Below, one piece after another: positions 42,226-56,940 of a stretch of 64,000 nucleotides of DNA (its first letter is position 1; each line of letters starts with the position of its first letter). Source of the stretch: an uncultured Allosphingosinicella sp. Its GTDB lineage: Bacteria > Pseudomonadota > Alphaproteobacteria > Sphingomonadales > Sphingomonadaceae. The notes beneath the pieces were generated by a model, which did not search any database, was not told the DNA's origin, and saw only the letters and a list, made by a program, of their open reading frames with translations. Position numbers and translations under genes: made by a program. Location of the stretch: NCBI GenBank assembly GCA_934539295.1, contig CAKTCN010000001.1:101249-165248 (forward strand), given 5' to 3'.

Positions 42226-42286
42226 TGGTTTTACCTGGTGGCTGCGCGGCGCGGCGATGCGGGCGACGCACGATGGGGATGACAGG

Positions 42287-42850: not shown

Positions 42851-42893
42851 GCGGCAAGGGCAACCCGGCGCGAGGTTCTTCGTTGCCTTTGTC

Positions 42894-43169: not shown

Positions 43170-43339
43170 AGGCGCGAAAAGGGCCGCCGTTCGGCGGTCT
43201 GCCGACCGGCAAAGGCGGCCTGCACATTCGTCGAAAAGGGCGATGCCTTGGTCGAAGGCGCGTCGCGGCGGCTGTATTGCGGATCTATAACAGCTCCATC
43301 AACGACGGGCATCGGGCACGTCGCGATCGAGGGAGTGAG

Positions 43340-43618
43340 ATGATGCGCAAGAGCTGGATTTCCGCCGCGGCCGTGGTCGTGGCGATGGCCGTGACCACCC
43401 CGGCGATGGCCGAGAAGGCTGCGGAGAAGGGCAAGAGCCTGGGCGTGGCCAGCGCGGCGGCAGCGACGCAGGCCGGCACTGCGGCCAAGCCCACCAAATA
43501 TTGCATGAACACCGAGGCGACCGGCAGCCGCATGCTGCGCAAGTCGTGCCAGACGGCCGAGCAATGGGCAGCCCAGGGCGTCGACCTGGAGCGCGAACTG
43601 AAGCGGAGCCGCCGTTGA
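43340..43618 (+). CDS. Small secreted protein with C-x(n)-TGSR-x(n)-C-xT motif
   Basis: 92 residues. Signal peptide (about 1-25, MAVTTPAMA). The C-terminal module YCMNTEATGSRMLRKSCQTAEQW has two Cys around a TGSR motif; the same layout (ICKKEMQSGSRVSGKRVCLT) occurs in the minus-strand gene at 50019-50249, so the two are paralogues. Likely periplasmic with one disulfide. Adjacent ATGs at 43340 and 43343. Lies immediately before the GTA promoter-like element. Confidence 0.68.
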   Translation: MMRKSWISAAAVVVAMAVTTPAMAEKAAEKGKSLGVASAAAATQAGTAAKPTKYCMNTEATGSRMLRKSCQTAEQWAAQGVDLERELKRSRR

Positions 43619-43631
43619 TCCAGATGGGTTC

Positions 43632-43667
43632 ATAATGCTTGACAGCGTCGCGCTGATCGGGTAACAG
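43632..43667 (+). promoter_or_regulatory. Promoter/operator element P1 before the GTA cluster
   Basis: ATAATGCT, then TTGACA (43639-43644) with the inverted repeat CAGCG-TCG-CGCTG (43643-43655), and a TAACAG -10 at 43662-43667 after 17 bases. A near copy (P2) lies at 47139. The symmetric core overlapping the -35 suggests a regulator site. Confidence 0.5.
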
Positions 43668-43691
43668 GGACCAGGATCGGGAAGAAACATC

Positions 43692-43727
43692 AAGGGCGTC
43701 CGGGCAGTGCCGGGGCGCCCTTTCTTC
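43692..43727 (+). terminator. Intrinsic-terminator-like hairpin before GTA g1
   Basis: AAGGGCG (43692-43698) pairs with CGCCCTT (43716-43722), with inner CCGG/CCGG pairing, followed by TTTCTT. Lies between P1 and the small terminase gene. Confidence 0.5.
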
Positions 43728-43775
43728 GTGGTCGCGGAGGCGATCGCGCGCGTGAGCGGGTGGGTGGCGGTGTCG

Positions 43776-43794
43776 AAAGGCGCCGCCTTTTTTT
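43776..43794 (+). terminator. Second terminator-like hairpin before GTA g1
   Basis: AAAGGC-GCC-GCCTTT (43776-43790) running into seven T (43788-43794), directly before the GGGGAGGCGGG ribosome site of the ATG at 43811. Confidence 0.5.
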
Positions 43795-43810
43795 GTTGGG
43801 GAGGCGGGAC

Positions 43811-44341
43811 ATGGCGAGGAAAGCCACGGGCAGAGGAAAGCGCAAGGCAAGTCGGCGGGCGCCGGCATGGACGGAGGCGCGGCGGCAGGCGTTCCTGGAG
43901 GCGCTGGCGAACAGCTGCAACGTCAGCAAAGCGTGCCAGGAGGTGGGGATGCACACGGGATCCGTCTATCGCGAGCGGCAGGCCAATGCGGCCTTTCGCG
44001 CAGGCTGGGCCCAGGCGCTGAGCGAGGGTTATGCGCGGCTGGAACTGATGCTGCTGCGCCGTGCGCTGGACGGCACGGTCAAGGAAGTGCGGCGCGGGGA
44101 CGGCGTGACGGAAAAGGTTGTCGAATATTGCGATCGCCTGGCGCTCCAGCTGTTGAAGCAGCACAAGGATGCGGCGGAGCGATACCAGGCGGCCGAGGCG
44201 CGGCCGGACGAGGACGTCGCGGGCGTGCGGTCGCGGATCGCGCGCAAGCTGGACGGCGTGCGGCGCCGGCTAGGGCTGGAGGATGATGGCGGCGACAAGG
44301 ACGGGGATGAAGGCGGGGAGGACGTGCCATGCCCCGCATGA
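43811..44341 (+). CDS. GTA small terminase-like protein (g1)
   Basis: 176 residues. Basic N-terminus (MARKATGRGKRKASRRAP), helix-turn-helix FLEALANSCNVSKACQEVGMHTGSVYRER, then YARLELMLLRRALDG and a long charged C-terminal helix ending DDGGDKDGDEGGED. Terminase small subunits recognise DNA and regulate the packaging ATPase; in GTAs the host genome is packaged. ATG at 43811 has GGGGAGGCGGG; an in-frame ATG at 43760 lies inside the hairpin region. Overlaps the large-terminase gene by 13 nt. Confidence 0.82.
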   Translation: MARKATGRGKRKASRRAPAWTEARRQAFLEALANSCNVSKACQEVGMHTGSVYRERQANAAFRAGWAQALSEGYARLELMLLRRALDGTVKEVRRGDGVTEKVVEYCDRLALQLLKQHKDAAERYQAAEARPDEDVAGVRSRIARKLDGVRRRLGLEDDGGDKDGDEGGEDVPCPA

Positions 44342-45684
44342 TGAGCATGAGCCCGGCGGGCATGCGCGGGTTGGTGGAAAGGCTTGCCGCGCTGCCGGCC
44401 GAGGAGCGGACGCGGCTGATCGCCAGCATGACGGTGGATGACCTGGAAAAGCTGGACCGGGCGTTCGAGGCATGGGCGCACCCGGCGCAGCGGCCGCCGG
44501 AGGGGAATTGGCGCGTGTGGCTGATCCAGGCGGGGCGCGGCTTCGGCAAGACGCGGGCGGGGGCGGAATGGGTGCTGCGCCTTGCCACCGTGCCGGGAAG
44601 GCCGGTGCGGATCGCGCTGGTGGGCGCGACGGCCGACGAGGTCCGTAGCGTCATGGTGGAAGGGGAGAGCGGCATCCTGGCCAGCGCGCGGGGGCGGCCG
44701 CGGCCGAAATGGGAGCCGAGCCTGGGGCGGCTGACCTGGCCCAACGGCAGCATGGCGTTCGTGCATTCGGCCGAGAATCCGGACGGGCTGCGCGGGCCGC
44801 AGCATCATCATGCCTGGTGCGACGAGGTCGCCAAATGGTCGCATGCCGAGGAGACTTGGAACAACCTGCAGATGGGCATGCGACTGGGCGAGGCACCGCG
44901 CACGATGGTCACGACCACGCCGCGGCCGGTGCCGATCATGCGGCGGCTGGCGGCGATGCAGGATGCGGTGGTGACGCGCGGCACGACGGCGGAGAATGTG
45001 ACACTGCCGCCCGCCTTCCTGGCGGCGATGGAGGCGGATTATGGCGCGACGCGGCTGGCGCGGCAGGAATTGGGCGGCGAGTTGATCGACGAGGTCCAGG
45101 GCGCACTGTGGAGCCGTGACCTGATCGAGCGAAGCCGCGCCTCCGCCGAGCCGGCGGGCGACGTGGAGCGCGACTATGCGCGGGTGGTGATCGGGGTCGA
45201 TCCGCCGGCAAGCAGCGGCGGCGATGCCTGCGGGATCGTGGCCGTGGGGCTGGGGCATGACGGCGTCGGCTATGTGATCGGGGATCATAGCGTCGCGGGC
45301 GTGTCGCCCGAAGGGTGGGCGAGCCGGGTGGCGGCCGCGGCCGAGGCGCACCGCGCGGACCTGGTGGTGGCGGAAAAGAATATGGGCGGGGACATGGTCG
45401 AAGCCGTGCTGCGCAGCGCCGACATCGCCCTGCCGGTGCGCGGCGCGCATGCGGGCAAGGGCAAGTGCGCGCGGGCGGAGCCCGTGTCGCTGCTGTTCGA
45501 ACGGGGCAAGGCGCGGCTGGCCGGGTGCTTCCCGGAACTGGAGGACGAGATGGCCGGCATGGTGATGGGCGGACCCTATCAAGGGCCGGGACGCAGCCCC
45601 GATCGCGCCGACGCCATGGTGTGGGCGATGAGCGAGGTTATGATCGGCCATGCGCGGGCGCAGCCGCGGGTGCGATTGCTATAG
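44329..45684 (+). CDS. GTA large terminase (g2)
   Basis: 451 residues. ATPase: Walker A IQAGRGFGKTRAG (66-78, key AGRGFGKT), Walker B region HHHAWCDEVAKW, coupling TTTPRPVPIM. Nuclease: VIGVDPPASSGGD, VVAEKNMGGDMV and RSPDRADAMVWA, which supply the metal-binding acidic residues. Cuts and drives DNA into the capsid. The gene continues intact to the stop at 45684, where the glycolipid-binding gene on the other strand overlaps by 6 nt. Confidence 0.94.
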   Translation: MPRMMSMSPAGMRGLVERLAALPAEERTRLIASMTVDDLEKLDRAFEAWAHPAQRPPEGNWRVWLIQAGRGFGKTRAGAEWVLRLATVPGRPVRIALVGATADEVRSVMVEGESGILASARGRPRPKWEPSLGRLTWPNGSMAFVHSAENPDGLRGPQHHHAWCDEVAKWSHAEETWNNLQMGMRLGEAPRTMVTTTPRPVPIMRRLAAMQDAVVTRGTTAENVTLPPAFLAAMEADYGATRLARQELGGELIDEVQGALWSRDLIERSRASAEPAGDVERDYARVVIGVDPPASSGGDACGIVAVGLGHDGVGYVIGDHSVAGVSPEGWASRVAAAAEAHRADLVVAEKNMGGDMVEAVLRSADIALPVRGAHAGKGKCARAEPVSLLFERGKARLAGCFPELEDEMAGMVMGGPYQGPGRSPDRADAMVWAMSEVMIGHARAQPRVRLL

Positions 45685-46239
45685 CGGCAGGCCGGCCTCC
45701 ATCTCCCACAGGTCGGGATAAAGGCTGACGAAGCCGTTGGCGGCGAGGCGGAGCGTGGCGCGATAGGGACCCTGCGGCGAGTCATAGTCGTAGGCGTCGG
45801 CAGCAGTGCGGCGGTAGATCTGGGGCAAGGGGGTCAGCGTGGCTTCGTTCACGTCGATCCAGGCGACGGTGATGCGGCCGGTCTGCCCTACGTCCAGCGC
45901 CATGCGCCGCAGTTGCGGGTAGTTGGTCGCGGGCGTGAAGCCGAAATCGAGATCGACGAGGCCGTCCACCGCGGGCTGAGCCATGCCGTTCAGCGTCCAG
46001 CGCTGCCCATGGCGTTCGATATGCACGCTGATCGGCCGGGCGCCGACGAAGCCGTCGATCGTGCCGGTGGTGGCCGACCAGTCGGGGGCGATGTCGAGCG
46101 CGTAGCGGATGGAGGCGGGTTCACCGTCCAGGAGGTAGATGGCACTGCCTTCCAGCCGGTAGCCGTCGGGCGTTTCGGCCAGCGCGGCGGCGTCGCGGCC
46201 GGACGTATAAAGTGCCTTCCAGAACGCGATGCTTGCCAT
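45679..46239 (-). CDS. Putative glycolipid-binding protein (DUF1089 family)
   Basis: 186 residues: GYRLEGSAIYLLDGEPASIRYALDIAPDW, RPISVHIERHGQRWTLNG, GLVDLDFGFTPATNYPQLRRM and PLPQIYRRTAADAYDYDSP match the putative glycolipid-binding (Glycolipid_bind) family found in many bacteria. Cytoplasmic, function poorly known. ATG at 46239. It is the first opposite-strand gene inside the GTA cluster and probably an independent insertion. Confidence 0.8.
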   Translation of the reverse strand: MASIAFWKALYTSGRDAAALAETPDGYRLEGSAIYLLDGEPASIRYALDIAPDWSATTGTIDGFVGARPISVHIERHGQRWTLNGMAQPAVDGLVDLDFGFTPATNYPQLRRMALDVGQTGRITVAWIDVNEATLTPLPQIYRRTAADAYDYDSPQGPYRATLRLAANGFVSLYPDLWEMEAGLPL

Positions 46240-46431
46240 GGCCTGCTCCACGAGGGCGGGCGGATGGCATAGCATGGTTGCGGGGGCGGACCAAAGGCCG
46301 TGCAGCGGCGAAGCCGGGCCCGTGCGAGGCGCGGCGGCGATGAACCGGCAGTGACCGGACGGTTCATGGCGCGATCAGGGGCGGGGTGGCTAAGGCGCTC
46401 TATTCACGGGCTTTCGTGTGAGGTGGACGGC

Positions 46432-46662
46432 ATGCGTTACCATTTCCATGTGGTTGCCGGCGGCGAGGTGATGCTGGACGAGGAAGGCTGCGAGATGGCC
46501 GAAGCGGACCTGCGGGCCTTCGCGCTGCAGGGCGCGCGGTCGTTGATCATGGCAGACGTGCGGGCGGGCACGCTCGACCTTTCGGGGCGGATCGACGTGG
46601 TCGACGAATATGGCCGCCAGGTCATGGTGCTGCCGTTCCGGGACGCGGTGGAATTGCGCTAG
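46432..46662 (+). CDS. DUF6894-type small protein
   Basis: 76 residues: MRYHFHVVAGGEVMLDEEGCEM, LRAFALQGARSLIMADVRAGTLDLSGRIDVVDEYG. The pattern (Tyr-His-Phe start, D-x2-G, A-x3-A-R-x-L-I, G-x-I-x-V-x-D-x2-G) is the DUF6894 family, common in alphaproteobacteria; function unknown. ATG at 46432 follows AGGTGGA; the longer frame upstream is filler. Confidence 0.78.
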   Translation: MRYHFHVVAGGEVMLDEEGCEMAEADLRAFALQGARSLIMADVRAGTLDLSGRIDVVDEYGRQVMVLPFRDAVELR

Positions 46663-46709
46663 CGTCGGCGCCACGACTGATCTAGCATCGGCGGTTAAAG
46701 GGGGTGGCC

Positions 46710-47102
46710 ATGAGTTTATCCACTATCGCGGGCGCGTTGCTGCTGTTGGGGGCTCCGGCCGTGCCCAATACGCCCGTCGTCACGGCGCCGATCGTGGCGG
46801 TTACGCCGCCAGTCCCACGAAGGCCGCTTGAGCGTCTGTTCTCGCCCATGGACTATCCCGCGGCGGCGCAGGAGACCGGAGCGCAGGGGCGCGTCGATGT
46901 GGCAATGCTGATCTCGCCCGCGGGCCGCGTTGCCGGGTGCGTTATCAAGAGTTCGAGCGGTTCGAGCCCGCTTGATGCCGCCACCTGCCGGATCCTGCGA
47001 TCGCGCGCGCAATTCAAGCCAGCACGCGACGGAGACGGGCAGGCGACTATGGGCGTCTTCGCCTTTTCCAAGACGTGGAAGGCGCCTGCGGGCGAAAATT
47101 AG
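46710..47102 (+). CDS. TonB C-terminal-domain protein
   Basis: 130 residues. A short signal or anchor helix (about 5-22) is followed by a Pro-rich stretch (NTPVVTAPIVAVTPPVPRR) and a TonB-C-like fold: YPAAAQETGAQGRVDVAMLISPAGRVAGCVIKSSSGSSPLDAATCRILRSRAQFKPAR, the last Cys residues likely paired. Without the usual long periplasmic rod, so probably a short energy-transducer relative or secreted TonB-fold protein. Starts at ATG 46710 behind GGGGGTGGCC. Confidence 0.75.
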   Translation: MSLSTIAGALLLLGAPAVPNTPVVTAPIVAVTPPVPRRPLERLFSPMDYPAAAQETGAQGRVDVAMLISPAGRVAGCVIKSSSGSSPLDAATCRILRSRAQFKPARDGDGQATMGVFAFSKTWKAPAGEN

Positions 47103-47138
47103 ACGCAAACACTCAGCCTCAGACGCGAACCAAATGGG

Positions 47139-47170
47139 ATAATGCTATTGACAGCGTCACGCTGTTATGG
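47139..47170 (+). promoter_or_regulatory. Promoter/operator element P2, copy of P1
   Basis: ATAATGCT (47139-47146), TTGACA (47148-47153) and CAGCG-TCA-CGCTG (47152-47164) repeat the P1 layout with one base change in the symmetric core. The -10 is less clear (CACAAG at the 17-base spacing). Confidence 0.45.
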
Positions 47171-47449
47171 CACAAGCGAGTCACGCTGGTGAATTGCGCC
47201 GGGGCGGGGGCAGCGATGTTTCGGATCGGCGAAGTGGTAAGACGCGGCTGGTTCGACAGCCGGGTGCAGGTGATCGGCGCGTCTAGGTGCTGGATTTCTG
47301 ACGTAATAGGCTTCCGTCGGCAGCGCGCCCTAGGGCGGCGTGCGGGAAGTGGCCTAACAGGTGATATTGAAGGTCATCCGGTCGGAAGTCCGCGTCCGGG
47401 CGGCGCCACCCATATTTGCACGAACCTTATAGTGCTGCTGACCCGTGGG

Positions 47450-47623
47450 TTAGTCTCGTGCGTCGCATGCCGGGCACAGGCTGAACCCTGCGGTCACCAT
47501 GCCCGTGTTCGCCATGAATGGATTGTGACAGTAGGAGCAGATGACGGTCGGCTTGTCTCGCGAGATTGATGAACCCCGCGGGCGACGCGTGGGAACAGGC
47601 TTAAGATTGCGCTCTCCGTCCAT
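47450..47623 (-). CDS. Small zinc-finger (CxxC-CxxC) protein, 57 aa
   Basis: MDGERNLKPVPTRRPRGSSI at the start, then VICSYCHNPF and FSLCPACDARD: two CxxC pairs 17 residues apart, a compact zinc-ribbon arrangement, after a basic tail. Too regular to be chance in a short frame. Function unknown; DNA/RNA binding is an inference. ATG at 47623, stop TAA at 47450-47452. A weak ribosome site (CGGAA). Lies opposite to GTA transcription. Confidence 0.65.
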   Translation of the reverse strand: MDGERNLKPVPTRRPRGSSISRDKPTVICSYCHNPFMANTGMVTAGFSLCPACDARD

Positions 47624-47792
47624 GGTTCCGGGCTAATACGGAAGGACTAACGGGTTCTTAATAGAGCGAATTGCGCGGCTTCGGAGACGAGATTTCTTGA
47701 TGGCGTGCCTCAATCCTCGGTTCTCCCTTCTGAGAATGGAGAGTGGATAGGGCGATCTAGCGAGGGGTGAGATCATGAGATGGTTCGGTCGT

Positions 47793-47824
47793 AAGGCCGC
47801 GTCCGGTGGGGCGCGGCCTTTTTT
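47793..47824 (+). terminator. Terminator-like hairpin in the portal 5' coding sequence
   Basis: AAGGCCGCG (47793-47801) pairs perfectly with CGCGGCCTT (47812-47820), followed by TTTTTT (47819-47824). It lies in codons 7-17 of the portal frame. Confidence 0.55.
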
Positions 47825-47984
47825 GTTGCGTGGGTGGTCCGCAGGCTCGGCGGACGTGCCGCGGGGATATGAGGCGCAGGTTCGGGAGGCGTATCTTTCC
47901 AACCCCGTGGCGCAGCGGGCGGTGCGGATGGTGGCGGAGGCCTGTTCGGGAGCAGTGGTCTATGACCTTGGCGGAGGGGCTTCG

Positions 47985-48060
47985 GCCCTTCGAGACGGGG
48001 CTTTGGTCCTTCGAGACGGGCCTTCGACAAGCTCAGTCCCTCCTCAGGATGAGCGGGGAG
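47985..48060. repeat. Dispersed TCGA-rich repeat cluster (family A) inside the portal gene
   Basis: CCTTCGAGACGGGGCTTTGG, CCTTCGAGACGGGCCTTCG and ACAAGCTCAGTCCCTCCTCA follow one another. The unit repeats CCTTCGAGACGGG and is translated in frame. Confidence 0.6.
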
Positions 48061-49039
48061 GGGGAGTGTCCGGAAGCGAGCGGGGAAGTGGAGCCTCCGC
48101 GAGAGAGCGGGAAAGGGCGGTTTCCGGAGGAGAGCGGCGGGAGGTGGTGCCGGGCCTGGTGACGCCGGCGCTTCTCGAAACGGTGACGACGCAGTTGCTG
48201 CTGCATGGCAATGCGTTCGTGCAGCTGATCTGCGGCGGCGACGGGTTGCCGGGGAATTGTTCGCGCTGCGGCCGGAGCGGGTGAAGGTGGAGGCGGATGC
48301 GGGCGGGTGGCCTGCCGCTTATGTCTACAAGGCGGGTGCGTCGAGGAGCCGGATCGCGGCGCGGGACGGGATGGGACGGCCGGGGCTAGTGCATGTGCGC
48401 TCGGCCCATCCGCTGGACGACCATTATGGACTGGGGTGCCTGGGTGCGGCGGCAGGGGCGGTGGCGATCCACAATGCGGCGACGCGGTGGAACAAGGCCT
48501 TGCTCGACAATGCGGCGCGGCCTTCGGGGGCGTTGCTGTTCGATCCGGGCGACGGGAGTGTCTTGAGCGAGGCGCAATATGCCAAGCTGCGCGACGAATT
48601 GGAGTTGACGTTCCAGGGGGCGGCCAATGCCGGGCGGCCGATGCTGCTGGAAGGCGGATTGAAATGGCAGGCGATGAGCATGACGCCGGCCGACATGGAC
48701 TTCGTGGGGCTGAAGGCCGCGGCGGCGCGCGAGATCGCGCTGGCGTTTGGGGTGCCGCCGATGCTGATCGGACTGCTGGGGGATGCGACCTATGCCAATT
48801 ATCGGGAGGCGAACCGGGCGCTTTGGCGGTTGACGGTGCTGCCGATGTGCGAGCGGATATTGGGGGCGCTGTCGGCGGGGCTTTCGGCGTGGTGGCCTGG
48901 GCTCAAGCTGGCGGTCGATGTGGACCAGGTGACGGCGCTGGCCGAGGATCGCGAGGCGCTTTGGCGGCAGGTGGGGGCGGCGGCGTTCCTGTCTGACGCG
49001 GAGAAGCGCGAGATGCTGGGGTTCGAGAGAAGGATCTGA

Positions 49040-49236
49040 TCACGCGAAGGCGCGAAGGCGCGAAGAAGAAGGTTAGGGTTCGCGCAGAGGCGCAGAGGCG
49101 CGGAGGGGCTGCGGTGGGTGGCTTGAGTGGTGGCAATGGAGGATCGATTGGCGGGCTTTGCCCGCGTTTTTCGTTTCTCCGCGTCTCTGCGTCTCTGCGC
49201 GAGCTCTTCTCTTCGCGGCTTCGCGCCGTCGCGTGA
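49040..49236. repeat. Long imperfect inverted-repeat element 1 between portal and DUF6127 genes
   Basis: Left arm 49040-49105 (TCACGCGAAGGCGCGAAGGC ... CGCAGAGGCGCAGAGGCGCG) pairs with right arm 49176-49236 read in reverse (TCACGCGACGGCGCGAAG ... CGCAGAGACGCAGAGACGCG) at about 85% by eye. A terminator hairpin sits near the apex. A relative occupies 55608-55766. Confidence 0.7.
49151..49171 (+). terminator. Terminator at the apex of inverted-repeat element 1
   Basis: GCGGGC-TTT-GCCCGC followed by GTTTTT. Confidence 0.65.
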
Positions 49237-49253
49237 AATAGTGGGAGGCGATC

Positions 49254-49562
49254 ATGGCGGATGTGGCGATGTTGGCGGCCTTGTTGCGGCAGGCCGAGGG
49301 CGAGGGTGCGGGCGTGGCGACGTTGAAGGCGCTGGCCGAGGAAGCGAGCGACGCGGGCGCGGAGCGGGCGCTGGGGCGGCTGGGGCTGGACGGGGCGGAG
49401 GCGCGGCGGGACATGGACGAACTGCGCGAGCTGCTGCGGGCATGGCGCGACGCCAAGAAGACGGCGCGCAATGCGGTGGTCGCATGGTGCGTGCGGATCG
49501 TGCTGGCGCTGGTGGTGCTGGGGATGAGCGTTCGGCTTGGGCTGCTGGAGATGGTGCGGTGA
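49254..49562 (+). CDS. GTA-associated small membrane protein (DUF6127-like)
   Basis: 102 residues. Amphipathic helices with MLAALLRQAEGEGAGVATLKALAEE, RRDMDELRELLRAWRDAKK, then one membrane helix VRIVLALVVLGMSVRLGLLEM at the C-terminus. I recall this type beside the GTA portal in sphingomonads (DUF6127); position equals RcGTA g3.5. Function unknown. GTGA overlap couples it to the protease gene. GGGAGG lies before the ATG. Confidence 0.7.
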   Translation: MADVAMLAALLRQAEGEGAGVATLKALAEEASDAGAERALGRLGLDGAEARRDMDELRELLRAWRDAKKTARNAVVAWCVRIVLALVVLGMSVRLGLLEMVR

Positions 49563-50005
49563 GCGACGGGCAGCTGCGCGCGCCGACTTCGCGCGGGACC
49601 AGCGAGGATTTGGCGCGGCGTCCGGTTAGGTTCGCGGGCTATGCGGCCGTGTTCGGGCGCGTGGATCGCGGCGGCGACGTGGTGCGATGCGGGGCGTTTG
49701 CGCGGTCGTTGCGGCGAGGCGCGGCGGTGCCGCTATTGTGGGAGCATGACGGGCGGCGGCGGATCGGGCGGGTCGAGTATCTGCGCGAGGACCGGCGCGG
49801 GCTGCGGGTGATCGGGCGGGTGATGGACGCCCAGGCCGCGGCGCTGCTGCGCGGCGGAGACGTGTCGGGCCTGAGCTTCGGCTACCGCGTGCGGACGGCG
49901 CGAGGGCAGGCGCCACGGGAGATCGGAGAATTGGAGTTGGTGGAGGTGAGCCTGGTAGCGCGGCCGATGCAACCCGCGGCGCGGGTGCATGCGATCGCAA
50001 ACTGA
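49559..50005 (+). CDS. GTA prohead protease, HK97 family (g4)
   Basis: 148 residues. FAGYAAVFGRVDRGGDVVRCGAF, catalytic His63 in PLLWEHD, Ser106 in GLSFGYR, and ELELVEVSLVARPM with a conserved Glu. Processes the capsid protein's N-terminus during head maturation. GTG start overlapping the upstream stop. The gene ends at 50005, 14 nt before the minus-strand gene's stop. Confidence 0.88.
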   Translation: MSDGQLRAPTSRGTSEDLARRPVRFAGYAAVFGRVDRGGDVVRCGAFARSLRRGAAVPLLWEHDGRRRIGRVEYLREDRRGLRVIGRVMDAQAAALLRGGDVSGLSFGYRVRTARGQAPREIGELELVEVSLVARPMQPAARVHAIAN

Positions 50006-50018
50006 GCCGCGGTGGTCC

Positions 50019-50249
50019 TTACTTGATTGCCCGAGCGCCATTCTGGCTGTTCAGAGCGCGCTGAGCTTCTTCGGCGCGTTGCTTCCACTCGGCTTGGGTC
50101 AGGCAGACGCGCTTGCCGCTGACACGGGAGCCGCTCTGCATCTCCTTCTTGCAGATCTTCTTTTCGGCCCCTGCGGGCGCGGCTTCCTGCTGGGCGACCG
50201 GGACCGGCGTAGCGAGCGCGAGCGAGACGATGAGCAGAAACGAAGACAT
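50019..50249 (-). CDS. Small secreted protein, paralogue of the 43340 gene
   Basis: 76 residues: signal peptide (MSSFLLIVSLALATPVPVA), KKICKKEMQSGSRVSGKRVCLTQAEW with two Cys about an SGSR motif, then a helical tail EEAQRALNSQNGARAIK. Opposite strand inside the GTA cluster, between protease and capsid genes. Function unknown; likely periplasmic. Confidence 0.7.
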   Translation of the reverse strand: MSSFLLIVSLALATPVPVAQQEAAPAGAEKKICKKEMQSGSRVSGKRVCLTQAEWKQRAEEAQRALNSQNGARAIK

Positions 50250-50367
50250 GGCGGGGACCTGACGCGCAAAAGGGCAATAATTCAAATGAGTAGGCCTGCG
50301 TGATCGCACGGTGTCAAGCAGATGCGGGTGTATGCCGCCAGATTGGCGTGAAATGGCAACAGCTTCG

Positions 50368-50405
50368 AGCCCTCGTTCCTCAGCGGAGCGGGGGCTTTTT
50401 CTTTT
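50368..50405 (+). terminator. Terminator-like hairpin before the capsid gene
   Basis: AGCCCTCG (50368-50375) pairs with CGGGGGCT (50389-50396, one G-T), then TTTTTCTTTT (50396-50405); 20 bases before the capsid ATG. Confidence 0.6.
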
Positions 50406-50424
50406 GGTGAGCGGGAGTGTGAGC

Positions 50425-51546
50425 ATGACGGATGTGACGACGAATGGCCTGGAGGCGTCGTTCGAGGCGCTGGAGCAGGGGAGCGAGGTGGAAGCGCTGC
50501 GTGAGGAGGTGGCTTTGCTGAAGGGGCGGATCGAGGACCGGGTGCTGGCTGCGGGACGGCCGGCGCTGGCGGGTGCGGGCGTGCAGGGGAGTGCGTTCGG
50601 GAACGACTATCTGCGGCGCGGGATCGAGAGCGGGTTGGAGGTGAAGGCCATGTCGGGGGTGACCGACACGGCCGGCGGCTATGCGGTGCCGGACGAGATC
50701 GACGGCGAGATCGACAAGTTGCTGACGGCGATCTCGCCGATCCGTCAGATCGCCCAGGTGGTGAAGGTCGGGTCGGCGGGGTATCGCAAGCTGGTGACGA
50801 AGGGCGGCACGCCGTCGGGCTGGGTGTCGGAGGATGCGGGGCGGCCGGAGACTGCGACGCCCGACTTCCTGGAGATCGCGCCGCCGTTCGGGGAGCTTTA
50901 CGCCAATCCGGCAGCATCCCAGGCGATGCTGGACGATGCGGCGTTCGACGTCGAGGCGTGGCTCGCCATCGAGATCGCCAACGAGTTCGCGCGGGCGGAA
51001 GGGCAGGCGTTCGTCAGCGGTTCGGGGGTGAGCCGGCCCAAGGGGTTCCTGTCGCAGCCGACCAGTGCGCAGGGCGATGCGGCGCGGCCGTTCGGGACGC
51101 TCCAATATGTGAGTTCGGGTGCGGCGGGCGCGTTTGCGGCGGCCAATCCGCAGGATCGGCTGGTGGACCTGGTCCAGAGCCTGCGGCCGCCATATCGCCA
51201 GGGCGCGGTGTTCGTGATGAATTCGGCGACGGCGAGCGTGATCAGGAAGTTCAAGACGAGCGACGGCGCATTCCTGTGGCAGCCGGGGCTGGTGGCGGGG
51301 CAGCCGGATACCTTGCTCGGCTATCCGGTGGTGGAGGCCGAGGACATGCCGGACATCGCGGCGGCGTCGCTGTCGATCGCGTTCGGCAACTTCAAGGCGG
51401 GCTATCTGATTGCCGAGCGGACGGAGACGCAGATCCTGCGCGATCCGTACACGCACAAGCCGTTCGTTCATTTCTACGCGACCAAGCGGGTCGGCGGGCA
51501 GGTGGTGAATAGCGAGGCGATCAAGCTGATGCGGTTCGCCCTGTAA
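50425..51546 (+). CDS. GTA major capsid protein, HK97 fold (g5)
   Basis: 373 residues. N-terminal scaffold-like coiled coil (EALEQGSEVEALREEVALLKGRIE, about 15-40), then the HK97 core from about residue 70: SGVTDTAGGYAVPDEIDGEI, KLVTKGGTPSGWVSEDAGRP, LYANPAASQAMLDDAAFDVEAWLA and PFVHFYATKRVGGQVV. Cleaved by g4 protease at about residue 75 in relatives. ATG at 50425 follows GAGCGGGAGTGTGAGC; the frame upstream is non-coding. Two terminators follow at once. Confidence 0.93.
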   Translation: MTDVTTNGLEASFEALEQGSEVEALREEVALLKGRIEDRVLAAGRPALAGAGVQGSAFGNDYLRRGIESGLEVKAMSGVTDTAGGYAVPDEIDGEIDKLLTAISPIRQIAQVVKVGSAGYRKLVTKGGTPSGWVSEDAGRPETATPDFLEIAPPFGELYANPAASQAMLDDAAFDVEAWLAIEIANEFARAEGQAFVSGSGVSRPKGFLSQPTSAQGDAARPFGTLQYVSSGAAGAFAAANPQDRLVDLVQSLRPPYRQGAVFVMNSATASVIRKFKTSDGAFLWQPGLVAGQPDTLLGYPVVEAEDMPDIAAASLSIAFGNFKAGYLIAERTETQILRDPYTHKPFVHFYATKRVGGQVVNSEAIKLMRFAL

Positions 51547-51576
51547 GTCAAAGTGGTACTTTGACTTAGTTTTTAG
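51544..51576 (+). terminator. Tandem terminator 1 after capsid gene
   Basis: Perfect 11-bp stem TAAGTCAAAGT / ACTTTGACTTA, loop GGT, followed by GTTTTTAG. The stem starts with the capsid stop codon. Confidence 0.85.
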
Positions 51577-51581
51577 ACGGT

Positions 51582-51631
51582 CTCGAAGTCACCCCGGAGC
51601 AAGTCCGGGGTGACTTCGAGGCTTTGTTTTT
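51582..51631 (+). terminator. Tandem terminator 2 after capsid gene (REP-type hairpin)
   Basis: Perfect 17-bp stem CTCGAAGTCACCCCGGA / TCCGGGGTGACTTCGAG with 5-base loop, then GCTTTGTTTTT. The centre equals the 'GTCACCCCGGAC' repeat type of sphingomonads (from memory). Confidence 0.85.
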
Positions 51632-51642
51632 AGGGGTGGAAG

Positions 51643-51906
51643 ATGTCCGATCAATTCTTTGCGCATGGCGATACGGTGAGTGCGCCGGCGCGTGGGGCGG
51701 TGGGGGTGGTGGCGCATGACGTCAACCCACTGCCGGTGGTGCCCAAGGCCTTGTTCGTGGGAACGGGCGGCAATGTGGTGGCGGCGGGGATGCAGGGCGG
51801 CGACGTGACATTCCGCAACGTGGCCGACGGGGCGGTGCTGCCGTTCCGGGCGGTGTTCGTGCGGGCGAGCGGGACGACGGCGGCCGATATCGTGGCGCTT
51901 TACTGA
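51643..51906 (+). CDS. GTA head spike base protein (Rcc01079-like)
   Basis: 87 residues: ANPARG-type SAPARGAVGVVAHDVNPLP, VPKALFVGTGGNVVAAGMQGGDVTFRNVADGAVLPFRAVFVRASGTTAADIVALY. This is the short spike-base fold of the RcGTA head-spike component (named Rcc01079 as I recall). TGATG overlap with the next gene. RBS GGGGTGGAAG. Confidence 0.78.
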   Translation: MSDQFFAHGDTVSAPARGAVGVVAHDVNPLPVVPKALFVGTGGNVVAAGMQGGDVTFRNVADGAVLPFRAVFVRASGTTAADIVALY

Positions 51907-52664
51907 TGCTGGCGCTGGGGCTTTCGATCGCGTTGGCGAGGATGGGCGGCCGGCCGGAACAGTGGGTCGGCCCGGCGCTGAGGGCGCTGTGGGATGCCGA
52001 GCGGATCGGAAGCCTGCAACTGGCGGGATCGAACGTGACGGCCTGGACCGACGTGGCGGGCGGGCATGTGATGAGCCAGCCGGTGTCCGCGTCCAAGCCG
52101 CTGTGGGTGGCGAACGGCTTTGGCGGGCGGCCCGGATTGCTGTTCGACGGGACGGACGACTTCCTGAACCTGGAGGCGGTGCCGTTTCCGACCGGGAGCG
52201 CGGCGTCGGAAATCTGGGTGCTTGCCGACTGGCTGATGCCGGTGACCGACACGGCGACGCGAACGCTGGTCGGCTATGGCGGGATCGGCACGGCGGACAG
52301 CCGGCGGGTGCAGCGCGGCGCGGTGGGCGGACGCAACGTCGCCCGCATCGCCGTCGGCACCGGCACGAGCGCGCAATCGATCAGCGATGGCAGCGATTAT
52401 GGCGGCCGCCACCTGGCACGCGGCGTGTTCGGGCCGGTGAGCCGGATCGTGGTCGACGGAACAGGCGGGGCGAGCAACGGCGACGCACCCAATAGCGGTA
52501 CGGTGCGCAGCCGCATCGGCGCGCGCACGTCGGTCGCGGTGGTCGAGCATGCGCATGCGATGTTCAGCGCGGTGGCGATCATCGACCCGGCCGAGCCCGG
52601 ATGGGACGAGGCCAAGGCGGCGCGGCTGACCGCATGGATGCTGCGGAGGAAGGGAGCGGGCTGA
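51906..52664 (+). CDS. Lectin-like head spike/fibre protein
   Basis: 252 residues. SNVTAWTDVAGGHVMSQPVSASKPLW, GGRPGLLFDGTDDFLNLEAVPFPTG and VGTGTSAQSISDGSDY show a jelly-roll (concanavalin-like/LamG) fold as used by phage fibres that bind capsule or LPS sugars. Follows the spike base with 1-nt overlap, so probably the receptor-contact tip. Not matched to a named family. Confidence 0.62.
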   Translation: MLALGLSIALARMGGRPEQWVGPALRALWDAERIGSLQLAGSNVTAWTDVAGGHVMSQPVSASKPLWVANGFGGRPGLLFDGTDDFLNLEAVPFPTGSAASEIWVLADWLMPVTDTATRTLVGYGGIGTADSRRVQRGAVGGRNVARIAVGTGTSAQSISDGSDYGGRHLARGVFGPVSRIVVDGTGGASNGDAPNSGTVRSRIGARTSVAVVEHAHAMFSAVAIIDPAEPGWDEAKAARLTAWMLRRKGAG

Positions 52665-52927
52665 TGTCGAAGGTGGTGATATTCGCCGACGGCCAGGAAG
52701 CGGCGGCCGACCTGTATCTGGCATGGTGCAACGCGCACAATCCGGACCCGGAGCCGGGTGCGATCTGGTATCTGGCGGATGCGGTGGATGCAGAGGGGCG
52801 GCGCGTGGTCGGCTATCTGGGCCCGGGCGGCCAGTGGAATGGCGGCGACTGGCCGGAGCCGGACGGCGGCGAGGCGGCGCGCGGGACGGGGATGTTAAGC
52901 GCCCTGGTGCGATGGCCAGACGGTTGA
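52664..52927 (+). CDS. Small protein in the spike module
   Basis: 87 residues; MSKVVIFADGQEAAADLYLAWCNAHNPDPEPGAIWYLADAV. Not recognised. TGATG overlap with the spike gene and a good fold-like mix suggest a real member of that unit. ATG at 52664. Confidence 0.62.
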   Translation: MSKVVIFADGQEAAADLYLAWCNAHNPDPEPGAIWYLADAVDAEGRRVVGYLGPGGQWNGGDWPEPDGGEAARGTGMLSALVRWPDG

Positions 52928-52978
52928 GTCCTGATGCTGCGGCGCATAAGCGCGGGATGACACGCAAGGAGGGTGAGA

Positions 52979-53365
52979 GTGGCGAGGAGCAGATTGGGTT
53001 CGGCGGCGATGGCGGCGTTCCTCGCATCCTTGTTGATCGGCACCATCGTGATGTTCCCGGCCTGGTCGCATCACGACGTGCGCGTGGACAGCCCGATACT
53101 TGCCGGCCGCGCGCAGGCGAATGCGTGGCTGCGCGCGTTCGAGGCAGGCGAGGGTGTGCGCTGCCTGAACTGGTCGGTCGAGACCAAGGTGATCGAGCAG
53201 GCCTATGACGGCGGCACGTTCGTGCAGTTCCGGTGCAATACGGAGCGGGCGCTGGTGCGCGTCGCACTTGGCTATGCAGTGCCGGCGGTGGTGGTGCTGG
53301 TGCTGGCCTTCTTGCTCGCGCCGCGGCGCGAGCATGCGGCGGGGCGCAGGAGAAAGAAGGGCTGA
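52979..53365 (+). CDS. Hypothetical protein with two membrane helices
   Basis: 128 residues: helices about 10-28 (AAFLASLLIGTIVMFPAW) and 100-118 (YAVPAVVVLVLAFLLAP) flank a polar, Cys-containing extracytoplasmic segment (GVRCLNWSVETKV...FVQFRCNTE). C-terminus is basic (RRKKG). GTG at 52979 has GGAGG six bases ahead. Not recognised; position suggests a GTA accessory or a cell-envelope gene that landed here. Confidence 0.6.
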   Translation: MARSRLGSAAMAAFLASLLIGTIVMFPAWSHHDVRVDSPILAGRAQANAWLRAFEAGEGVRCLNWSVETKVIEQAYDGGTFVQFRCNTERALVRVALGYAVPAVVVLVLAFLLAPRREHAAGRRRKKG

Positions 53366-53678
53366 GCCCTAGCCGTCAGCAGGCGTAGCCGAGATCGCCG
53401 TCGTGGCGACCGGCACGATGGAACAGGTCCAGGTAGCGCCCAGCCTCCATATAATGAGTGCGGCGCACTTCCTCGTCCTCGGCCGCTTGCGCCAGGGCGA
53501 GTTCGATCTCCGCACGCTGGCCGAAAGCCGACACTTCCTGTTCCGACATTCTGGTCCCCCAACCCGAATCGATGCGCAAGACTAGCACGTCTGCTGCGCT
53601 GCACAATGCGCCACTTTAGAGAGGCTTAGCGGCCGGGCGGCCGCTGCGGGGAGAAACGACATGGAGAAAGAAGGGCTG
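53349..53678. repeat. 16-bp direct repeats bracketing the 53376 gene
   Basis: GGAGAAAGAAGGGCTG occurs exactly at 53349-53364 and 53663-53678. The first copy ends the membrane-protein gene; the second provides the ribosome-site region of g6. The minus-strand gene at 53376-53549 lies between. Confidence 0.75.
53376..53549 (-). CDS. Small conserved-looking cytoplasmic protein, 57 aa
   Basis: MSEQEVSAFGQRAEIELALA, then QAAEDEEVRRTHYMEAGRYLDLF. A two-helix protein with the 'Q-A-x2-A-x2-E-E-x-R-x2-H-Y-x2-A-x-R-Y' pattern seen in small sphingomonad proteins (from memory). Function unknown. Opposite to the GTA genes. Confidence 0.6.
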   Translation of the reverse strand: MSEQEVSAFGQRAEIELALAQAAEDEEVRRTHYMEAGRYLDLFHRAGRHDGDLGYAC

Positions 53679-53680
53679 CG

Positions 53681-54226
53681 ATGCTGAGTGCGGAGGCGAT
53701 GGTGCTGCCGCAGGCGGCGGCGGACGAGGTGAAGGCCTATCTGCGGATGTTCACGACCGACGAGAATGGCGAGGTTCGAGCGTGCCTCGCCGCCGCGGCC
53801 GAACTGTGCGAGCGGTTCACGGGACAGGCGTTGCTGGTGCGCACGCATGAGGAGAGGCTGGCGAGCAGCGGGGGATGGATGCGGCTGTCGGCCGGGCCGG
53901 TGACGGCGATCGGCGGGGTGCAGGCGTTAGGGCCGGATGGGAGCGCGGTGGCGGTCCCGGTCGATGCCTATGCGATCGACATCGATGCGGACGGGCAGGG
54001 CTGGGTACGAACCGGCGCCGGGCGGGTCAGGGTGAGCTACCAGGCGGGGCTGACGACGGGGTGGAGCGGACTGCCGGAGGCGCTTCGGCACGGGATCGTG
54101 CGGCTGGCGGCGCACCTGTTCATGGAACGGGGCGAAATGCGCACGGCGCCGCCGGCGGCGGTGAGTGCGCTGTGGCGGCCATGGCGGCAAATGCGGATCG
54201 GGGGCGGTCATGTTCGAACGGCTTGA
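53681..54226 (+). CDS. GTA head-tail connector (g6-like)
   Basis: 181 residues: EVKAYLRMFTTDENGEVRACLAAAAELCERFTGQ opens the domain, then VTAIGGVQALG, IDIDADGQGWVRTGAGRVRVSYQAGL, ALRHGIVRLAAHLFMERGE and LWRPWRQMRI. This is the gp6/HK97 adaptor family. ATG at 53681. Confidence 0.82.
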   Translation: MLSAEAMVLPQAAADEVKAYLRMFTTDENGEVRACLAAAAELCERFTGQALLVRTHEERLASSGGWMRLSAGPVTAIGGVQALGPDGSAVAVPVDAYAIDIDADGQGWVRTGAGRVRVSYQAGLTTGWSGLPEALRHGIVRLAAHLFMERGEMRTAPPAAVSALWRPWRQMRIGGGHVRTA

Positions 54227-54404
54227 GGACAAGATGCGGGAGACCGCCGAGCGGCGGGTCCGGGCGCGAGTGGCGGATCTCGCCGGACAGGAGGTGCCAG
54301 CCGGAGTGCGGGTGAGCGTGGAGGACGGACAGGTGACGCTGAGCGGGCGCGGGCTGATGCGGCGGCTGGTCGGCGATGGAGCGCTGCGGGAGTGGCGGCC
54401 GTGA
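54210..54404 (+). CDS. Small GTA protein at g7 position
   Basis: 64 residues: MFERLEDKMRETAERRVRAR, VPAGVRVSVEDGQVTLSGRGLMRRL. Mixed helix-strand; overlaps g6 end by 17 nt and g8 start by 4 nt, so translationally tied. RcGTA g7 (stopper) is larger; relation unclear. Confidence 0.65.
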   Translation: MFERLEDKMRETAERRVRARVADLAGQEVPAGVRVSVEDGQVTLSGRGLMRRLVGDGALREWRP

Positions 54405-54781
54405 GTGGCGCGGCTGCGGCGCTGCGGGCGGCAGCGCGGGAGGCCCTGTCGGCGATCGGCGGGTTCGGCCTGTTCGATGCGGCGCCGGGCCAGGCCGCGT
54501 TTCCATATGTGGTGCTGGAGTGCGGGCCGGAGACGGATTGGGGGCACAAGAGCGGTGCGGGGCGTGAGCTGCGCATGGCAGCGGCGGTGCGAGACAGGGG
54601 CGAGGCACCGGAGCGGCTGGAGGCGATAGCGCAGGCCTGCGAGACAGAATTGTGCGCGATGAGCGGCGTGGTCGACGGGTGGCAGCTGGTCAGCCTGCGC
54701 CACCTGCGCACGCGAACGGCGCGGGAGCGCGACGGCTGGATCGCCGCGGCCGAGTTCAGGGCGCGGATGTTGAAGGTCTAG
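54401..54781 (+). CDS. GTA tail terminator, DUF3168 family (g8)
   Basis: 126 residues: LRAAAREALSAIGGFGLFDAAPGQAAFPYVVL, TDWGHKSGAGRELRMAAAVRDRGEAPERLEAIA, WQLVSLRHLRTRTARERDGWIAAAEFRARML, the DUF3168 pattern. GTG start overlapping the previous stop; a GTG at 54392 is also in frame. Confidence 0.85.
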   Translation: MSGAAAALRAAAREALSAIGGFGLFDAAPGQAAFPYVVLECGPETDWGHKSGAGRELRMAAAVRDRGEAPERLEAIAQACETELCAMSGVVDGWQLVSLRHLRTRTARERDGWIAAAEFRARMLKV

Positions 54782-54828
54782 GCGATCACCTCCGTCCTTC
54801 GCGCGGGGGACGGGGTGCGCGGCAGCCC

Positions 54829-55146
54829 TTATTCCTGTGGCGCTTCGTAGCGGGCCTGGGTTTCGGCGAGATAATCGTCGATCTGGGCCTGCGCGCCCTG
54901 GTTGGCGGCGGCGGCAGTGGCGCCCGCCTTTACGTCATAATCGACCACCGCCTTGCGGAAGGCCGCTTCCTCCGTCTTGCAGCCGGCCTTGAGCGCGGTT
55001 TCGAAGGCGGACTTGCTGGCTTTGTCCTGCTCGCTCTTCTTCACGATGGCGGAGAGGCAGGCGGCATAGGTCTTGCGCGGCTGGACAATCGCCTCGGCCT
55101 GCACAGCGGCGGCCGAAAGCGCGGCCGCAGCGATCAGGGTGATCAT
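54829..55146 (-). CDS. Small secreted protein on the opposite strand
   Basis: 105 residues: signal peptide (MITLIAAAALSAAAVQAEA), YAACLSAIVKKSEQDKASKSAFETALKAGCKTEEAAF, RYEAPQE end. Alpha-helical, two Cys. Not recognised. It resembles small conserved periplasmic proteins; codon use is like the host's. Confidence 0.68.
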   Translation of the reverse strand: MITLIAAAALSAAAVQAEAIVQPRKTYAACLSAIVKKSEQDKASKSAFETALKAGCKTEEAAFRKAVVDYDVKAGATAAAANQGAQAQIDDYLAETQARYEAPQE

Positions 55147-55192
55147 GGCAGCATCCTTTCCAACTTTATCTTTTATCGAGGGAGAATGACTC

Positions 55193-55600
55193 ATGCCTGC
55201 GGAAAAGGGAAGCGCGTTCCTGCTGAAGGTCGGCAACGGCGCGCAGCCGCCCGCCTTTGCCACGGTGGCCGGGATGCGGACCACGCAAATGTCGGTGAAC
55301 GGGGAGGGCGTGAACGTCACGTCCAAGGATAGCGGAGGCTGGCGCGAGCTTCTGTCCGGTGCGGGCGTCCGGTCCGTGTCGGTGGCGGCGAGCGGGATCT
55401 TTACCGGGTCTGCGGCGGAGACGCGGGTGAAGGCCCATGCACTGGCCGGCACGCTGGACGAATATGAGCTGAGCTTCGAGAGCGGCGAGCGGCTGCGCGG
55501 GCGGTTCCTGGTCACGCGGCTCGATTATTCGGGCGATTACAATGGTGAGCGCAATTATGCGCTGAACCTGGAGAGTTCGGGCGCTGTGGCGGCTGTCTGA
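55193..55600 (+). CDS. GTA major tail (tube) protein (g9)
   Basis: 135 residues: MPAEKGSAFLLKVGNG, FATVAGMRTTQMSVNGEGVNVTSKDS, GWRELLSGAGVRSVSVAASGIF, LDEYELSFESGERLRGRFLVTRLDYSGDYNGERNYALNLESSG. TP901-1/major-tail family, forms the tube of the short non-contractile tail. GAGGGAGAATGACTC before the ATG. Confidence 0.88.
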   Translation: MPAEKGSAFLLKVGNGAQPPAFATVAGMRTTQMSVNGEGVNVTSKDSGGWRELLSGAGVRSVSVAASGIFTGSAAETRVKAHALAGTLDEYELSFESGERLRGRFLVTRLDYSGDYNGERNYALNLESSGAVAAV

Positions 55601-55607
55601 GGTTTGA

Positions 55608-55766
55608 TCACGCGAAGGCGCGGAGGCGCTAGGAAGACGCGCAGAGACGCAGAGACGCAGAGGCGCGGAAGGGGCGTTGCTGTTGTTGAGGCGGCGTGGA
55701 TCTGTTGGCTGAGGATGGCGGGCGATGCCCGCCTTTTTTGTCTCTGCGTCTCTGCGTCTCTGGGCG
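55608..55766. repeat. Long inverted-repeat element 2 between g9 and g10
   Basis: Left arm TCACGCGAAGGCGCGGAGG ... CGCAGAGACGCAGAGACGCAG (55608-55670), apical terminator at 55717-55739, shorter right arm TCTCTGCGTCTCTGCGTCTC (55741-55766). Resembles element 1 but the right arm lacks the GCGAA half. Confidence 0.65.
55717..55739 (+). terminator. Terminator at the apex of inverted-repeat element 2
   Basis: GGCGGGC-GAT-GCCCGCC then TTTTTT (55734-55739): a textbook intrinsic terminator. Confidence 0.75.
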
Positions 55767-55788
55767 AAATCAACTTGGGGAGGGCGAA

Positions 55789-56100
55789 ATGGCGCAGGCG
55801 AATGGGGTGCGGGGTGAGGCGGCCTTGCTCGTGGGGGGCGAGATGCTGGTGTTGCGGCCTTCGTTCGAGGCCCTGGTGGCGGCGGAGGAGGAACTGGGGT
55901 CGCTGTTCGCGCTGGTTGAGCGGGCGAGCGGGGGCGGGCTGAAGCTGGCCGAGATGGCGGGCCTGTTCTGGCACTGCGTCGGGGAGCGGCCGGCGCATGT
56001 GACGCGCGAGGCGGTGGGCGCGGCTTTGGTCGAGGGCGGGGTGGCGAGGGCGACCCCCGTGCTGAAGCTGCTGCTCGTGCAGATCCTGCAGGGACGGTGA
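55789..56100 (+). CDS. GTA gene product 10-like tail chaperone
   Basis: 103 residues: MAQANGVRGEAALLVGGEML, LRPSFEALVAAEEELGSLFALVERASGGGLKL, FWHCVGERPAHVTREAVGAALVEGGVARATPVLKLLLVQIL. GTA gp10/TAC family, helps load the tape measure. ATG at 55789 follows GGGGAGGGCGAA; the earlier start lies in the inverted repeat. Confidence 0.82.
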   Translation: MAQANGVRGEAALLVGGEMLVLRPSFEALVAAEEELGSLFALVERASGGGLKLAEMAGLFWHCVGERPAHVTREAVGAALVEGGVARATPVLKLLLVQILQGR

Positions 56101-56354
56101 TGGACGGGCGCGGGTTTCGCGATCTCTCGACACCGATCGAGACAGGCTCCGCTCGACCCGAACGGGGGTTCGGGGAGGGGGCGATGCGGCTGGCTGGTGT
56201 GACGGGCGTGCTGCTCGGGTGGCGGCCGGCGGAGTTCTGGGCGGCAACGCCGGCCGAGCTTGCGGCGGTACTGGGGGCGATGATGCCGGCCGAGGCGGCG
56301 GTGCCGTCGCGAGGGGAACTGGCACGATTGATGGAGATGTTTCCCGATGGATGA
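56100..56354 (+). CDS. GTA tail assembly chaperone (g10.1-like), with repeat-encoded N-terminus
   Basis: 84 residues. The conserved core RLAGVTGVLLGWRPAEFWAATPAELAAVL (from about residue 30) is the phage TAC/DUF2376-type helix pair. The first about 28 residues include LSTPIETGSARPERGFGEG, translated from a family-A repeat unit (56123-56168). ATG 56100 overlaps the previous stop (TGATG); ATG 56184 behind GGGGAGGGGGC would skip the repeat. Overlaps the tape-measure start by 8 nt. Confidence 0.72.
   Translation: MDGRGFRDLSTPIETGSARPERGFGEGAMRLAGVTGVLLGWRPAEFWAATPAELAAVLGAMMPAEAAVPSRGELARLMEMFPDG
56123..56168. repeat. Dispersed TCGA-rich repeat unit (family A) within g10.1
   Basis: TCTCGACACCGATCGAGACA, then GGCTCCGCTCGACCCGAACGG. 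Contributes codons for the chaperone's N-terminus. Confidence 0.6.
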
Positions 56355-56898: not shown

Positions 56899-56940
56899 CT
56901 GCCGCCCCGAGGGCGGTCATCAAGATCAAGGAACGGATAT

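Follow-up and report, generated by a model that had tools for sequence, protein, structure and literature searches.

Terminator-like hairpins at conserved positions in a sphingomonad gene transfer agent cluster that adjoins a GafZ-like gene

How can a gene transfer agent (GTA) operon be expressed if its coding strand is studded with signals that should stop transcription? This question is raised by a GTA cluster within a 64,000-nt stretch of contig CAKTCN010000001.1 (hereafter the window), from an uncultured Allosphingosinicella sp. The original prediction, made from the sequence alone, counted at least eight plus-strand hairpins with T-runs in this cluster, and held that either an antiterminator acts or each block of genes has its own promoter. 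The hairpins, the conserved positions and polarity that they display among relatives, the promoter copies and the adjoining regulator genes are evident from the sequence. On this basis, we regard the hairpins at 43692/43766, 47793, 50368 and 51544/51580 as probable intrinsic-terminator gates of a GafZ-type antiterminated GTA operon. Indeed, the conserved stop signals together with the adjoining GafZ-like gene suggest a lock-and-key control of particle production.

Terminator-like hairpins and their positions in relatives

Folding of the window sequence recovered all eight hairpins, each facing the plus strand (table 1), including the perfect 17-bp stem announced at 51582. As had also been claimed, hairpins stand directly before start codons, namely those of terS (43811), the capsid gene (50425) and an open reading frame (ORF) at 51643. 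Under a strict rule (energy of -9 kcal/mol or lower and at least six T among the eight bases 3' of the stem), both strands of the whole window yielded six plus-strand sites and no minus-strand site; all six are members of the eight and lie within 43766-55733, inside the GTA cluster. When the rule was relaxed to at least five T, 12 plus-strand sites (seven of them members of the eight) and three minus-strand sites were obtained, and a looser scan of both strands of 40000-59999 returned 17 terminator-like sites versus 8.8 +/- 3.3 in shuffles. The hairpins have the form of intrinsic terminators, i.e. a G+C-rich hairpin directly followed by a T-run, except that the stem at 51544 is A/T-rich and that the T tails at 43692 and 51544 are weaker. 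Treating all eight as one design was nevertheless an overstatement: the hairpins at 49151 and 55717 each form the centre of a palindromic repeat that is present in two copies, and were, for that reason, rejected as members of the regulatory set. They are probably incidental, although polymerase could stop there.

A capsid-based scan for related clusters gave at least 592 stretches, at least 539 of them confirmed, and the best 80 loci were analysed. By title, these belong to sphingomonads or relatives, with the exception of L002 (an unassigned alphaproteobacterial metagenome-assembled genome), and the top four, at 72-78% capsid identity, include Allosphingosinicella and Sphingosinicella. Inside the 80 clusters (859,562 bases), which come from related species and are not independent samples, the strict rule found 87 plus-strand versus 7 minus-strand sites, and in their flanks (644,545 bases) 19 versus 8. 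Each position was assessed with the rule of at least five T; two references were used, the mean over 20 dinucleotide shuffles and the reverse strand of each segment. Hairpins were present in 45 of 80 loci within 260 nt upstream of the capsid gene (shuffles 3.45; reverse strand 4), in 24 of 72 between -60 and +115 of the portal gene (2.65; 4), in 18 of 80 within 200 nt downstream of the capsid gene (3.45; 4) and in 13 of 54 upstream of terS (1.25; 3). Values upstream of gp6 (9/75; 1.70; 7), gp9 (6/71; 2.40; 3) and gp10 (8/71; 3.75; 1) were somewhat above shuffles, with little polarity at gp6, and no enrichment was found upstream of the protease gene (1/77; 1.30; 3). The 45 capsid hairpins form 33 groups without a common 11-mer, indicating that the position is kept while the stems differ. 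A decaying cluster with repeats, devoid of regulatory meaning, would be in keeping with the two hairpins that sit in repeats and with the broken portal frame of the window copy, but the other positions are conserved, above every one of the 20 shuffles, and we hold this to be the least probable of the alternatives.

The frequency of the pre-capsid hairpin rises with the gap between protease and capsid genes, from none of 12 loci below 60 nt to 15 of 32 at 60-160 nt, 12 of 14 at 160-300 nt and 18 of 23 above 300 nt, these gaps being measured to the start of the capsid match and possibly overestimated. Moreover, the genes inserted in L008, L009, L016 and L018 lie on the minus strand, so that a hairpin facing the plus strand does not serve as the terminator of those genes themselves, an explanation that is ruled out in such cases. 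Both observations would suit hairpins acting as insulators only, which shield the portal and capsid genes from transcription of inserted host genes while the GTA is expressed by partial read-through, with no dedicated antiterminator. This nonetheless appears unlikely, as the leader hairpins precede any inserted gene of the operon and a GafZ-like gene adjoins the cluster (see below). Within an antiterminated operon, which we prefer, the pre-capsid gates go with room for inserted genes, and this suggests that they double as insulators. A class-wide capsid gate was also considered and rejected: among the best loci of a class sample, the pre-capsid hairpin occurs in 2 of the 28 that fall outside the sphingomonad range (all but L109/L110), and L110, a sphingomonad-like locus of that sample, has none. 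The gate thus looks sphingomonad-specific.

The portal hairpin is of a particular kind, as it starts 18 nt past the start codon, inside the coding sequence. The portal protein of the window, like that of 12 close relatives, begins with M-K/R-(W)-...-G-R-K, followed by R-P-F within approximately 20 codons, and these N-terminal codons encode both the stem and the T-run. The Phe codon of R-P-F is TTT in 13/13 sequences, versus 16.3% of the 104 Phe codons elsewhere in the same portal genes; its Pro codon is CCT in 12/13, versus 8.3% of 252; and the codon after CCT-TTT is TTG or TTA in 8/13. These counts, like those of pairs, describe the element-bearing clade, L160, L161 and L163 having been excluded for having no R-P-F motif or hairpin; L157 has the R-P-F codons and no scored hairpin there. 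In an alignment of 12 of the 13 sequences, 95.7% of 140 cells are paired, changes on both sides occur in 5 of 12 pairs, and covariation reaches 0.271 versus a shuffle mean of 0.092, with none of 500 shuffles as high and all slid versions lower. As far as sequence can establish it, coding-level selection acts on this hairpin, via the rare CCT-TTT codons.

The portal hairpin had been likened to an attenuator. What stands of this proposal is a conserved, covarying terminator-like element; there is no sign of a riboswitch, Rfam at gathering thresholds returning only a tRNA in the whole window. Attenuation or translational coupling, in which a ribosome or an alternative RNA fold would set read-through at single hairpins, notably this one, agrees with its place just past the start codon and with the ability of a ribosome closely trailing polymerase to suppress a terminator, as described in PMC4824070. 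We consider it very unlikely in view of the Rfam result and of other clades, in which the hairpin stands at about +22, at +55 to +78 or at about -50 relative to the portal start, i.e. also deeper inside the gene or upstream of it. Even less credence is given to hairpins that serve RNA processing or stability rather than termination: strong stems do lie at gene borders, but the T-run is 3' on the plus strand (45 versus 4 upstream of the capsid gene) and the portal codons are chosen for it.

Promoter copies and leaders

A sigma-70 consensus scan revealed no promoter. As the -10 of the GTA promoter is far from consensus, relatives were compared instead, and a common sequence emerged (approximately accaaatnGGnanaannnncTTGACAtCGtcACGCTgnTntGGnACAtancngGAAcg), present with at most three substitutions in 60 of the 75 relatives in which terS, terL or portal was matched, and twice in the window (the remaining five of the 80 loci, without such a match, were left unscanned). 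With a matrix built without the window sequence, only two places in the window exceed 15 bits, 43639 and 47148. These two copies, P_terS and P_portal, match its terS-terL block and its portal block, and both carry an inverted repeat CAGCG-N3-CGCTG between -35 and -10, which is less perfect in many relatives.

A whole-genome pattern search allowing one mismatch gave 19 matches in 16 of 17 sphingomonads, versus one for the reversed control. Matches are single except in G002 (two) and G004 (three). For 17 of the 19 places, terS, terL or the portal gene lies within 1.5 kb, the remaining two (L103, L105) being 3.3-3.5 kb upstream of terS. One copy in G002 precedes terS-terL and the other precedes the portal gene on a separate contig; the extra copies in G004 precede other terminase genes. 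Across the class, a promoter match was found in 11 of 385 genomes, exact only in G001 and G029. Two side observations concern these places. L090 and L106, from the genome of L006, hold two added promoter copies near terminase-like genes (terL identity 52% and 39%), beyond the main cluster. L017:1442 and L067:2129 are each the sole promoter match of their genome; they are separated from terS, which is downstream, by 3.3-3.5 kb, precede a gene whose product starts MSVLSS, and have a different leader devoid of the hairpin.

Judging from spacing, transcription from P_terS would start near 43675, which places the hairpin at 43692 at about +17 and that at 43766 at about +91, ahead of terS. After exclusion of L017 and L067, whose leaders are over 1500 nt from a gene, and of L035, with more than two substitutions, 59 leaders were available from L001-L080 and the window. 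A compact hairpin with a T-run occurs near the same place in 20 of them, whereas ten shuffles gave 0-4 and 116 control segments gave one, by a rule written after a looser first test had failed to discriminate (35/59, versus 18-20 in shuffles and 15/58 control segments). A conserved word, approximately GAgAAATTGCG, was also seen in the 59 leaders after the presumed start site and 5' of the leader hairpin, and may act as a pause site or in antitermination.

The choice that had been offered, an antiterminator or separate promoters, is therefore not exclusive, and the evidence favours both. Extra promoters alone would be insufficient for expression, because hairpins separate each promoter from its coding sequences (43692 and 43766 after P_terS, 47793 after P_portal). 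A literature search of open-licence PubMed Central (PMC) papers returned none that treats terminators in sphingomonad GTA clusters or a promoter motif for them.

A GafZ-like gene and the proposed control

A candidate for the processive antiterminator that the original prediction had proposed to look for is a DUF6456 (GafZ-like) gene on the minus strand next to the cluster. Its orthologue adjoins the same divergent helix-turn-helix (HTH) gene in all eight relative genomes examined, and among 14 control genomes only Caulobacter vibrioides has a DUF6456 family match. A PDB sequence search with the GafZ-like protein gave no relative at E <= 1. Several of the weak PDB matches of its AlphaFold2 model are to sigma region 4 domains, which agrees with the sigma-like HTH described in GafZ; PMC11150451 reports that GafZ has no similarity to known antiterminators. 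At E <= 0.001, the AlphaFold2 model of the divergent HTH protein (mean predicted local distance difference test score, pLDDT, 77.8) retrieved 17 PDB structures, every one a LexA or lambda/186 repressor. Its predicted fold has the RogA-type architecture, an N-terminal HTH followed by a LexA/CI-like C-terminal domain, and the gene may accordingly be called RogA-like, a likening made to the description of RogA only.

The best point of comparison is Caulobacter crescentus, in which GafY, GafZ, integration host factor (IHF) and RogA, described as LexA-like, control the GTA (PMC11150451, PMC9632790), and in which GafZ carries polymerase past terGTA and rrnB T1 (PMC11150451). Both systems have a terminator that follows the promoter of the GTA cluster, a GafZ-family gene, a LexA-like repressor gene in the circuit, and an inverted repeat between -35 and -10, where Caulobacter has its GafZ-binding element, the sequence of the repeat being different (PMC11150451, PMC9632790). 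However, terGTA of Caulobacter consists of three 150-bp repeats after the first gene, whereas the T-run hairpins of the window occupy the leader, codons of the portal gene and both sides of the capsid gene; the -35 is AATCAT there and TTGACA here, and the -10 differs too. The window is also distinguished by a gafZ that adjoins the repressor gene, by two promoter copies and by the lack of a detected GafY. In Rhodobacter capsulatus, the GTA cluster likewise has a DUF6456-family activator, GafA, for whose homologues the domain has been noted; GafA differs in being one fused protein acting through the omega subunit (PMC9638019), and antitermination by GafA is only suggested (PMC11150451).

According to the reading that we favour, RNA polymerase would start at the two copies of one GTA promoter, P_terS and P_portal. 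Unmodified, it would halt at the hairpins of the leader and of the portal gene. Polymerase coming from genes inserted in the cluster would halt before the portal and capsid genes. With the repressor encoded beside gafZ relieved, the inverted repeat between -35 and -10 would be the site where the GafZ-like protein loads on polymerase, and polymerase so loaded would pass the gates. Termination in vivo, binding and read-through by the GafZ-like protein and the target of the repressor are thus what we infer from the arrangement of the locus. In the Q-type antitermination of lambda, the gate is tR'. The proposed control resembles that system, in that a promoter element serves for the loading of a factor and a promoter-proximal terminator as gate (PMC11150451), but the window system is not a member of it by any test made here, Q homologues not having been searched for.

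Several points weigh against this reading. The -10 of P_terS is poor, weaker than that of P_portal, and its matrix score is lower by 30 bits; no hairpin lies near the start of P_portal, the first one being the portal hairpin. The compact hairpin is missing from 39 of the 59 leaders, and a consensus fold of 18 leaders gave 0 pairs. By the rule of at least five T, 35 of the 80 relatives have no pre-capsid hairpin, and L001, a closest relative among the matches listed, is one that has no hairpin before the capsid gene; the portal hairpin is absent from L160, L161 and L163 (68-71% portal identity). The AlphaFold2 model of the GafZ-like protein (mean pLDDT 70.4) has 0 PDB matches at E <= 0.001. GafY was not found with Bac_DnaA_C, a non-specific profile with one match per genome in seven of eight relatives and two in G012. 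Finally, binding of GafZ at the sphingomonad repeat would be an analogy of place, next to -35 and -10 elements that differ from those of Caulobacter.

More tentatively, and as a possibility somewhat short of probable, we propose that sphingomonad GTAs use distributed terminator checkpoints, one of them in portal codons, to keep particle genes silent despite host insertions; a single GafZ-modified polymerase, loaded at each promoter copy, would clear all of them, and split pieces of the cluster would each take a promoter copy. If so, GTA antitermination, shown so far in Caulobacter according to the literature found, would extend to sphingomonads, with several gates instead of one, and these GTAs would have a searchable promoter signature. 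It would also account for the way in which an operon of domesticated phage origin can undergo host-gene insertion and splitting and yet be silent when off and switchable as a unit. The portal-codon terminator, kept by the choice of rare codons, would offer a specific and testable case of RNA-level selection over protein coding.

Table 1. Positions in the window of the regulator genes, promoter copies, hairpins, repeats and main GTA genes.
Feature	Positions	Strand	Details
GafZ-like gene (DUF6456), candidate processive antiterminator	41668-42147	-	PF20057, E 5.5e-41
HTH gene, LexA/CI-like predicted fold, divergent from GafZ-like gene	42287-42850	+	HTH_3
GTA promoter copy 1 (P_terS)	43619-43675	+	TTGACA at 43639; inverted repeat CAGCG-TCG-CGCTG 43643-43655; 37.0 bits
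Leader hairpin	43692-43722	+	-24.9 kcal/mol; tail TCTTCG; about +17 from presumed start site
Terminator-like hairpin before terS	43766-43787	+	-17.0 kcal/mol; TTTTTTTG, 7 T; 23 nt 5' of terS; given as 43776 in the original prediction
terS, small terminase	43811-44341	+	phrog_4044, E 3.9e-13
terL, large terminase	44329-45684	+	Terminase_6N, Terminase_6C
GTA promoter copy 2 (P_portal)	47128-47183	+	TTGACA at 47148; inverted repeat CAGCG-TCA-CGCTG 47152-47164; 67.7 bits
Portal gene, two frames (47775-48284, 48257-49039)	47775-49039	+	Phage_portal, E 1.9e-60 for second piece
Terminator-like hairpin in portal coding region	47793-47820	+	-24.8 kcal/mol; TTTTG after stem ending TT; codons 7-16
Palindromic repeat copy 1	49040-49236		terminator-like centre 49151-49165; probably incidental
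Terminator-like centre of repeat copy 1	49151-49165	+	-10.4 kcal/mol; GTTTTTCG
Terminator-like hairpin before capsid	50368-50396	+	-22.1 kcal/mol; TTTTCTTTTG; 28 nt 5' of capsid
Capsid gene	50425-51546	+	Phage_capsid, E 2.5e-88
First of tandem pair after capsid	51544-51568	+	-10.7 kcal/mol; GTTTTTAG; A/T-rich stem starting at capsid stop codon
Second of tandem pair after capsid	51580-51622	+	-38.6 kcal/mol; 17 perfect pairs 51582-51598/51604-51620
Palindromic repeat copy 2	55602-55768		terminator-like centre 55717-55733; probably incidental
Terminator-like centre of repeat copy 2	55717-55733	+	-13.7 kcal/mol; TTTTTTG

Gene content and repeats of the cluster

The cluster follows the order of the Rhodobacter capsulatus GTA (RcGTA) type: terS, terL, portal, DUF6127 gene, protease, capsid and tail genes. 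Between terL and the portal gene (45679-47623), genes without GTA relative were found, namely a glycolipid-binding-family gene (-), a TonB_C gene (+) and a small Cys-rich ORF (-), the last located between P_portal and the portal gene. A small minus-strand ORF without family match lies between the protease and capsid genes, and more such minus-strand ORFs occur near 53.4 and 55 kb, all ORFs without family match being called by open frame alone.

The portal gene is split into two overlapping frames by a frame shift within a G-rich stretch (48240-48284), which is either a real break or a misread; intact copies exist, since the frames of close relatives are open, without stops. The stretch 47970-48140 of the window portal is seemingly an in-frame insertion and contains the word ccttcgacaagctcag, which resembles a dispersed repeat of alphaproteobacteria.

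Among the eight relative genomes, the word of the palindromic repeat occurs at one place in G003 and three in G010, the reversed control also matching in five of the eight; of these matches, only two in G010, which face each other at a distance of 114 bases, look real. The palindrome at 51582 was considered as a common repetitive extragenic palindrome, an idea that found no support, as its pattern occurs in three of the eight relatives, at one, one and two places. A palindrome resembling it, TCACTCCGG-N7-CCGGGGTGA, was observed at about 6066 of L004, in the GTA cluster near the end of terL.

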